Source of the DNA: Chloroflexota bacterium | GTDB lineage: Bacteria; Chloroflexota; Ktedonobacteria; Ktedonobacterales; Ktedonobacteraceae | Length of the DNA stretch: 6,562 bases | Direction: 5' to 3' | Assembly (NCBI GenBank): GCA_005879655.1 | Contig: VBJK01000447.1 | Coordinates: forward strand, 1-6,562 | Notes under the pieces: generated by a model | What the model saw: only the letters and a program-made list of their open reading frames with translations | What the model was told of the DNA's origin: nothing | The model's database searches: none | Made by a program: the position numbers and the translations under genes | Shown here: piece after piece, positions 583 through 6,048 of the stretch | How the letters are laid out: each line of letters begins with the position of its first letter | Numbering within the stretch: position 1 is the first letter of the stretch

Positions 583-3500
583 TATCAGGCGAAAGATGAT
601 AAACATATCAAAGAAGAAATAGATAGAGAAGCTGTGATTATTGTATTATCGGCTAAGAAAGAGCTGAATTTGCGTGAATATGCTCAACTCCTAAAAGACT
701 CTATAAAGAAAAGTCTGCTAGACGCGGGCCACATGGCAAGGTTGAAAGATATTGCTTATACGTTGCAAACAGGTCGGGACCCAATGTCATGCAGGCTGGC
801 ATTTACAGCGAGAGGGCCAGAGGAAATCCTTGAGAAACTTTCGTTCTTTCTCAGTTCTCGTAAGGATCTTGAGAAGAACGCTGTATACGTTGGATACGGA
901 ACAGCAGGAAGAAAGCTAGCAACGGAGGAGGATCTCGACGATCTCCAAGTTGTTCGATCATCACCAGTTATGTTGGAAAAGATAGCAGAACTTTGGGCGG
1001 GCGGAAGAGAGATAGACTGGGCAAGCATGTATCGAAATGAGAGACGTTTCAAGGTGTCTTTGCCAACATATCCTTCTTCAAAAGAGAGATACTGGGTTGG
1101 GGGACAGCTTGTAGAAGCGCCGCAGGCAGAGAATGAAAAACCAGACAAGCCTGGACGTTCCACCTTTCTAGCAGAGCTGTGCCAGGCGATCCCTGGAGAG
1201 CGCCTGGGCATGCTTGAAAAGTATCTGCAAGATAAACTGGCAAGATTGCTAGCTTTCAGTCCCCCTGACGTGCCAGAAGTTCATCAGGGCTTTTTTGACC
1301 TGGGAATGGAATCGGTTCAGACCGAACAGTTTCTGGTTTCGCTTAAAAAATGTTTTCGGATTGATATGGCTGAAACAGCTCTCTTTGATTATCCCAACAT
1401 TTCAGCATTATCTGCGTACATCGTCAAGCTCATTCCTTTTGAAGATCTGGTTGAAGATCCGTACCAATTTGCCTTCAGCAGTCCAATGGCAGATATACCT
1501 GACCGTAGCGGCGGGCTTGCTCTGCCTTCTGTGCCAGAGGAAAAACAGCCAAAAAATATGCAAGAGCCAATTGCCATCATTGGGATGGGATGCCGTTTCC
1601 CAGGAGGATGCCATGACCCTGAAACCTTCTGGAAGTTCTTAACGGAAAGTGGTGATGGAGTCATCGAGGTTCCCAGGGACCGATGGCGTATTGAGGACTT
1701 CTATGACTCTGATCCCAAGGCTGCTGGCAAAATCTATCTCAAAGAGGCTGGGTTTTTACAGGAAAATGTGGGTGACTTTGATGCCCGCTTTTTTGGTATA
1801 TCGCCACGGGAAGCAGTTGAAATGGACCCCCAGCAACGACTGCTCTTGGAGGTGAGTTGGGAAGCTCTAGAGCGGACAGGCATCCCTGTGAACCAACTCA
1901 AAGGGACGCAAACCGGTGTTTTTATCGGAATCGTTGGTTCCGAATATGCCCTTTTGCCTCGTGAGAGCGTCGCTGTAAACCCCTACAGGCTGACAGGTTC
2001 CCTGTCTAATATGGCTTCTGGTAGAATTTCCTATACGTTAGGCGTACATGGTCCATCGATTTCCCTTGATACGGCCTGTTCATCATCACTGGTCGCGGTT
2101 CATCTAGCGTGTGAAAGTTTACGCAGAAGGGAATGTACTTTGGCTCTGGCTGGAGGCGTTAGTCTACTGCTAGCGCCTGATGGATTTCTCTCTCTCTGTG
2201 CATTACACGCGCTGTCATTAGACGGAAGATGCAAAACGTTTGACGCCGCTGGCGATGGCTATGGACGCGGTGAGGGATGTGGAGTGGTAGTCTTAAAAAG
2301 GCTTTCTGATGCTTTGCGAGAGCACAATCCCATTTTAGCCGTCATCAAAGGAACGGGTGTGAATCAAGATGGTCCAGGCAGCGGTCTGACAGTGCCAAAT
2401 GGAAAGGCTCAAAAGGCTTTGATCCTCAAAACACTTGAGGCAGCAAACCTCTCGCCCGCAGATATTGGGTATGTGGAGGTTCATGGAACGGGCACCGCTT
2501 TAGGAGATCCCATCGAATTTCAGGCATTGACGGAAGTATTTGGCAAAGAGAATAAGCGAGAGATGCCGCTCTCTATCGGTTCGGTCAAAAGCAATATCGG
2601 ACACTTGGAAGCAGCGGCAGGGATTGCAAGTCTGATTAAAACAGTCTTATGCTTGCAGCACAAGCAAATTCCACCAAATCTGCATCTACACACAATCAAT
2701 CCAAAAATCCGCTTGGAAAGTATTCCGGCGACAGTCCCTCAAAAATTGCTTCCCTGGGAAACCACGGGAACACATCGGATATCAGGGGTGAGTTCGTTTG
2801 GGTTTAGTGGCACCAATGCTCATGTCATCGTCTCAGAATGGCAAGACGCCCCGATGGCCTCTTCGCGCTCTTCTTTCGAGAGGCCCTGGCATATTCTGGC
2901 CCTTTCAGCAAAGGATGAGAAGGCCTTGTCTCAACTCATAGCCAGGTACGGAACGCACTTTGACCATATCAGCTGCGAGAAACTGGAGGATATATGCTTT
3001 ACAGCGAGTGCCGGGAGATCGCATTTTTCTCATCGCATTGCTTTTATTGCAAAAGACCTGGAACAAATGAGAAAGATATTCTCCGCATACCTGAGCGGAA
3101 ATAAAGATGAAGGAGTAATCGAAGGGAAAGGCCTGGATCACACGCATCCCAAACTTGCCTTTCTGATCCAGGGGAAAATCAAGCAGGAACTAGCGCAAGC
3201 CTTGTTTGCAACACAGCCAATTTTCCAACAAACACTCCGCTCCTGTGACGAACGATTCCAGCAGTTAGTCAATCTCTCCTTGCTAGAAAAAAGTGCGCTG
3301 GGAGGGAGTGTACATGCCGGGTTACTGGATGATGCTCTTTCGTTTGCCTTGCACTTGAGCTTGTTGAAAGTATGGGAATTATGGGGAGTCAGACCCGGTG
3401 CGGTTATGGGATGCAAAAGCGGAGCATTGGTTGCGGCCTGTGCTGCCGGAATTATGGATATGGAAGCAGCATTCAGCCTTCTTCTAGCACGTTGGGGAGT

Positions 3501-6048: not shown

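Follow-up and report, generated by a model that had tools for sequence, protein, structure and literature searches.

What becomes of a polyketide synthase (PKS) module once its own acyltransferase (AT) can no longer work? The question is raised by a stretch of DNA of 6,562 nucleotides (referred to below as the window) from a Chloroflexota bacterium of the family Ktedonobacteraceae (GenBank assembly GCA_005879655.1, contig VBJK01000447.1, positions 1 to 6,562). It carries a single reading frame, nucleotides 1 to 6048, which has no internal stop codon, in keeping with the original prediction of an intact frame. The 5' end of the frame is open, and its 2015 amino acids are therefore a minimum length. 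The encoded domains are, in order, the second half of a ketosynthase (KS1), a flanking subdomain, an acyl carrier protein (ACP1), a second ketosynthase (KS2), a linker, an AT remnant, a dehydratase (DH), ACP2, and a thioesterase (TE), all on the plus strand. The account that we favor, and regard as probable, is that a trans-AT assembly line ends in this window and that its last module (KS2-AT-DH-ACP2-TE) descends from cis-AT PKSs, has a dead AT, is loaded in trans by a discrete AT, and keeps the AT core for structural reasons.

How dead is the AT? What is left of it (nucleotides 3148 to 3705, residues 1050 to 1235) amounts to about 186 residues of core, a remnant of the large subdomain recognized from alignments to CurL and within the family, landmark counts, and a predicted model. 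Alignments and a motif check place the former nucleophile elbow at nucleotides 3409 to 3426 (residues 1137 to 1142), where it reads GCKSGA, Lys1139 occupying the position of the Ser in the GHSxG motif of PF00698. The oxyanion motif GQGSQ is likewise gone, and GKIKQ, from residue 1058, aligns with it. Nucleotides 3493 to 3534 hold the junction of a deletion of 85 to 87 residues that has removed the catalytic His and the small subdomain. The alignment to the cis-AT KS-AT didomain of CurL (4mz0) breaks here at CurL 706/window 1165 and restarts at CurL 806/window 1178, a net loss of 87 residues, and the window has 39 residues between the elbow and IRLIS, the first strand shared after it, versus 124 in all five intact reference ATs. 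GHSVGE, a GQGSQ-type motif, and the stretch that includes the small subdomain and the His are all present in CurL and all missing from the window AT. The catalytic His, which falls within the missing part, leaves empty columns in the alignments, and a motif scan of residues 950 to 1310 found no FHS-like motif, the six other His residues within 1050 to 1235 notwithstanding. The Pfam profile Acyl_transf_1 (PF00698) matches at 20.4 bits, below its cutoff of 32.7. The predicted fold is that of the large subdomain. In short, the AT of the last module lacks every catalytic part: the Ser, the His, and the small subdomain. A Ser-to-Lys change, an altered GQGSQ, and the absence of some 90 residues containing the small subdomain and catalytic His had all been read from the bare sequence, and residue-level alignment bears each of them out.

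Could such a lesion be a sequencing or assembly error, or the mark of a pseudogene? The sole source of the window protein is a short contig (6564 bases), which speaks for an error, but the same deletion in all 15 proteins of its family, from different assemblies, and the stop-free frame speak against it. This explanation was rejected, and its probability is negligible. The family came from a protein search with residues 1020 to 1460, in which 299 proteins matched at E 0.001 (the best 120 are covered here, and scoring was limited to the 7967 candidates sharing most words), and from a set of 80 loci, the best 80 of 442, which were retrieved through their similarity to the dead AT and whose share of truncated ATs is therefore no prevalence. 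The close family comprises 15 distinct proteins: that of the window, P0003 to P0013, P0016, and the loci L002 (Streptomyces prunicolor) and L003 (Streptomyces hyaluromycini); L001 is the same gene as P0012. Named sources among P0003 to P0013 and P0016 are Priestia megaterium, a Clostridia bin, Paenibacillus sp. HN-1, Bacillus cereus BAG5X1-1, and a Streptomyces, and three members come from the named isolate genomes of Paenibacillus sinensis, S. prunicolor, and S. hyaluromycini. The deletion leaves 37 to 39 residues between the elbow and next-strand landmarks throughout the family. None of the 15 has Ser at the elbow, where there is instead G (five proteins), Q (four), H (three), K (two), or E (one). 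Because this residue varies among relatives, no shared new nucleophile has replaced the Ser, and that candidate was discarded. A search within the genus found the close family in 1 of 100 Paenibacillus genomes, that one being the center of the search itself; a scan of genome contigs with the AT-DH stretch of the window gave 18 pattern matches, with no relative among them; and in a plasmid scan with P0010, all 1343 records had less than 60% identity.

Two family members carry an additional element. P0009 has a 41-residue in-frame peptide (LLQYPxTDRGN...SSGxALG) twice, at residues 653 to 693 and 1158 to 1198, one copy immediately before the dead AT elbow and the other in the DH region. The two are 68% alike. 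P0007 has one copy at residues 1151 to 1191 (93% alike), and the peptide looks like a mobile in-frame insert.

Are the changed elbow and the deletion two independent inactivating changes, as had been proposed? Both lesions are real, but they cannot be called independent, since they occur together in all 15 proteins and since P0014, a more distant member of the KS2 clade, has the deletion with the Ser retained (GESVGS). P0014 hints that the deletion predated the loss of the elbow Ser; the small subdomain, in other words, would probably have been lost before the elbow drifted. Orthologues from Bacillota and Actinomycetota share the broken AT, as do proteins from Thermodesulfobacteriota and Myxococcota that belong to the same KS clade. 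Judged from these sequences, the AT was broken long ago, and later stages can be seen among relatives. The suggestion that the domain is a snapshot of a cis-AT module becoming dependent on trans loading has to be given up, the dead core being an old inheritance across several phyla.

Where did the module come from? The two KSs appear to have different ancestries. In P. sinensis and S. prunicolor, a separate PKS protein lies upstream, and its C-terminal end corresponds to residues 1 to 500 of the window protein. KS1 (nucleotides 1 to 585, the C-terminal half of the KS of the upstream module, with HGTGT at residue 66 and NIGH at residue 103) is 70.8% identical to the last KS of that protein in both clusters. 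KS1 is of the trans-AT type by orthology, since its orthologues group with trans-AT KSs. It is followed by a flanking subdomain only, without an AT core (nucleotides 613 to 1155), where the AT profile matches twice, over the linker and over the post-AT linker, and Pfam reports a RhiE-like linker. This subdomain is 48% identical to the Paenibacillus orthologue. ACP1 (nucleotides 1183 to 1500; GMESV begins at residue 435) is one of the two stretches in the protein matched by Pfam PP-binding, with 57% identity to P. sinensis and 41% to S. prunicolor. From KS2 onward, the window matches the next protein in these relatives, so that two proteins are fused into one frame. The N-terminal helix of the relatives' KS2 protein (MLKEIGQEDY...) is missing from the fused frame (window 1 to 2853).

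KS2 (nucleotides 1552 to 2853), identified by Pfam and by its motifs TACSSS (residue 691), HGTGT (residue 828), and NIGH (residue 865), has the AT core kept behind it. In a tree of 56 KSs, its family (18 rows) falls within the cis-AT side as a single clade (99/94, recovered in 100% of 200 bootstrap trees). The opposite side (100/99) consists of 14 trans-AT KSs, among them the orthologues of KS1 and further KSs from their clusters. An approximately unbiased (AU) test rejected a tree in which the KS2 family was forced together with the trans-AT KSs (P = 0.003), and with it the idea that KS2 is a trans-AT KS. The nearest KSs with an intact AT are the cyanobacterial L045 and L065, whose AT motifs are intact, and P0108, in which the elbow was seen and which sits on a long branch, weakly placed (90/64); these three and the KS2 family form a set of 21 rows with support of 98/94. 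In this tree, 18 KSs of the cis type and 6 others with a truncated AT were handpicked, the 14 trans-AT KSs were picked by source, and the AU tests were designed after the tree had been inspected. The trees omit duplicates, fragments, and unclassed segments (L001, G001c239_19915, L002, G007_167014, P0004, P0005, and P0008), and P0054 was restored for the 56-KS tree. Descent of the last module from cis-AT PKSs is supported by this placement.

How, then, would ACP2 (nucleotides 4948 to 5175; Pfam, with GMDSI beginning at residue 1684), a carrier that the dead AT cannot load, receive its extender unit? As had been predicted, loading by another enzyme is likely, although for the window itself the loader is one that we infer. 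The upstream module is of the trans-AT type, and a search of the relatives' clusters for a discrete AT found an intact one in both Streptomyces species, about 28 kb from the dead AT on contigs of 234 and 447 kb (S. prunicolor and S. hyaluromycini, respectively). Both carry GHSLGE and AFHS; that of S. hyaluromycini also has GQGSQ, and a TGA flagged in it is its own terminal stop codon. The P. sinensis cluster includes two HMG-CoA synthases, two enoyl-CoA hydratases, a free-standing KS, an AMP ligase, and a methyltransferase. Sets with HMG-CoA synthases commonly accompany beta-branching in trans-AT systems. The same cluster encodes a half-length AICAR transformylase (L085:18672-19844; Pfam), and a protein similar by eye (MKLRYGINPQQ...) is found in the Streptomyces clusters. 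In the mechanism that we propose, placement of the module in a trans-AT line would have made its own AT redundant, a discrete AT would deliver the extender unit (probably malonyl) to ACP2, KS2 with its intact catalytic motifs would extend the chain, and the DH and TE would finish and release it.

Might the intact AT of a neighboring cis-AT module do the loading, with no discrete AT involved? The available passages on the irumamycin PKS propose just this for AT12, a dead AT in the terminal module served by AT11 (PMC11672594), and dead ATs of other lineages do adjoin intact integrated ones. Among 10 further genomes searched, those from cyanobacteria, acidobacteria, and planctomycetes have the truncated AT on the same contig as at least one intact integrated AT, and four Paenibacillus genomes have, besides integrated ATs, a discrete AT (frames of 430 to 449 amino acids) some 29 to 30 kb from the truncated one. 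This survey put an end to the idea that a dead AT is a general marker of pure trans-AT clusters. In the family at hand, however, the two Streptomyces cluster contigs yield no AT matches besides the dead core and the discrete AT, and KS1 has a flanking subdomain only, so that a neighboring AT is a very improbable loader. Alternatively, KS2 might merely hand the chain on, needing no extender unit and making the AT loss neutral. A DH without a ketoreductase (KR), next to a KS1 module with neither KR nor DH inside the window, would suit a module of this kind. KSs that do not elongate usually lose a His, though, whereas KS2 retains its Cys motif and both His motifs, which leaves a nonextending module unlikely.

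Why keep half an AT? The original prediction held that the domain persists as a structural or docking scaffold. Between S. prunicolor and S. hyaluromycini, the single species pair compared, the ratio of nonsynonymous to synonymous substitution rates (dN/dS) is 0.377 for the core (95% interval, 0.238 to 0.675), 0.268 for the DH (0.178 to 0.434), and 0.091 for the KS (0.049 to 0.141), with domain borders, here and in the identity counts, chosen by the analyst. Purifying selection on the core, weaker than on the KS, is visible in this comparison. Mean pairwise identity among the 15 close-family proteins is 48% for the core, 50% for the DH, and 76% for the KS; positions presumed to bear the fold, such as W1125, W1128, P1132, G1137, A1145, A1146, and W1204, are invariant in all 15; and a high-confidence structure prediction retains the core fold of the large subdomain. 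(An AlphaFold model of KS2 plus the AT core, built with 13 rows, had a pLDDT of 39.8 and was discarded.) The core might fill the place of the AT between the linker domain that follows KS2 (nucleotides 2872 to 3135; Pfam CurL-like_PKS_C, with strands and helices in the model) and the post-AT linker bearing LPTYPFQ (nucleotides 3784 to 3918; alignment and motif), holding KS2 and the downstream domains in register, and perhaps it offers the discrete AT an additional landing surface.

Several observations weigh against the account of a trans-loaded module with a structurally kept core. No discrete AT is seen within the 6.5 kb of the window, the P. sinensis cluster contig stops short of the place that the AT has in Streptomyces, and the P. 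sinensis genome has its discrete AT (GYSLGE) on a separate contig, with other genes around it. With a window this short and that contig end, the loader is shown in just two close-family clusters. As similar dead ATs elsewhere sit among intact integrated ATs, a dead AT alone is no proof of trans loading. On the structural side, one species pair is thin evidence, and the linker preceding the core has a dN/dS of 0.55 (0.292 to 1.119), so constraint there is not clear. Two clade members, P0100 and L035, have no AT core and only a flanking subdomain, yet retain KS-DH-ACP-TE, so that not every module of this kind requires the core.

Is the core, then, a passive relic? It could be without any role, clean in-frame removal being rare, and be eroding slowly toward the state of trans-AT modules, with a flanking subdomain only. 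This possibility opposes only the scaffold part of our account, the dead AT and trans loading being common to both. The unchanged module order of P0100 and L035 suits it, as do the strongly diverged cores of L008 and P0054 (27% and 25%), a 39-residue insert just ahead of the old elbow in P0009, and a core dN/dS four times that of the KS. On the other side stand a core dN/dS below 1 with an interval overlapping that of the DH, a within-family identity near that of the DH, the invariant fold-bearing positions, and the confidently predicted fold, although selection merely against misfolding would account for all of these too. A relic is a substantial possibility that falls a little short of probable, and we lean slightly toward retention of the core for structural reasons. 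Purifying selection in one species pair speaks for the predicted scaffold; the two members that dropped the core entirely speak against it.

How general is this kind of AT loss? In a check of 21 proteins (P0004, P0005, and P0008 in addition to those of the 18 tree rows), DH, ACP, and TE follow the KS in 20, the exception being P0006, which ends ahead of the TE, and BLAST detects an AT core in 19. An AU test on P0100 and L035 as one clade gave a P value of 0.302, with which a single and a double loss of the core are both compatible. In a tree of 105 KSs, which used 45 intact-AT segments drawn at random and in which other truncated-AT cases were typed by length only, truncated ATs are scattered, and well-supported branches force at least eight label changes; from this scatter, AT loss seems to have been repeated in PKSs. 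Truncation was seen in 43 of 245 segments, a count that gives no prevalence, typing having used only the distance to LPTYPF, with some loci double-counted and 10 segments unclassed. It is tempting to see in the KS clade a record of a stepwise route from cis-AT to trans-AT, from intact ATs (the cyanobacterial neighbors) through P0014 and then the window with its 14 relatives to P0100 and L035. Trans-AT-like modules would then arise on more than one occasion by capture and decay of cis-AT modules, and lineages that keep the dead core would use it as an interface with the discrete AT. We offer this broader view tentatively and consider it rather doubtful.

Other arrangements came to light along with these cases. 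In P0015 (residues 440 to 841 and 838 to 1281) and in the L014 reading frame (residues 493 to 871 and 1020 to 1452), a truncated AT after the KS is followed by a second, longer AT (GISFGE and GYSTGE, respectively), as though the AT had changed its place along the protein. L092 and L093, from the Paenibacillus genomes G034 and G056, belong to another truncated-AT lineage, with the elbows GDRIGE and GDWIGE; two of its four loci were read, and the other two gave no frame longer than 900 amino acids. The four genomes with these loci are the Paenibacillus ones that have both integrated ATs and a discrete AT 29 to 30 kb away.

How does the module compare with known systems, as far as the available passages of the papers cited here describe them? 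The flanking subdomain (FSD, once called the AT-docking domain) of trans-AT KSs resembles the region after KS2 in having no integrated AT activity and in its end motif, LPTYPFx5W (PMC11260071). The region after KS1 is of the FSD kind. According to a 2024 paper, the KS-AT linker remnant alone remains after trans-AT KSs (PMC11775670), whereas KS2 is followed by about 186 residues of AT core besides and has a cis-AT descent. The irumamycin PKS shares with the window an inactive AT and a TE in its terminal module; it differs in that loading is proposed from the same line, and the available passages are silent on a missing small subdomain (PMC11672594). In AT-null DEBS modules, a discrete AT stands in for one that is dead or has been deleted (PMC6164871), but they are engineered, while the window is natural and inherited. 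The mixed nosperin and cusperin clusters combine KS and AT parts of the cis-AT type with a trans-AT line (PMC12184294), the passages at hand being silent on a dead AT, and displacement of ATs in algae has been argued from KS trees (PMC4661987). A literature search, weak because most subscription journals lie outside its coverage, found no published description of the dead-core family or of such an intermediate. What the window adds is half an AT, natural and inherited, in a module of cis-AT descent that ends a trans-AT line. Relatives on either side of the loss make the shedding of AT domains testable inside one clade. They also supply natural examples of points at which an AT can be excised from a module, which is useful for engineering. 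Some mining schemes exclude modules with KS plus AT from trans-AT lines (PMC7930024), and schemes like these may drop or misread half-AT modules.

The DH (nucleotides 4123 to 4845) is recognized by Pfam PS-DH and by sequence matches to the dehydratase structures of CurJ, CurK, and CurF, and the terminal TE (nucleotides 5278 to 6030) by Pfam Thioesterase and a GHSVG motif at residue 1837. About 40 bases past the TE stop codon begins a DDE_3 transposase fragment, on the minus strand at window positions 6088 to 6381.
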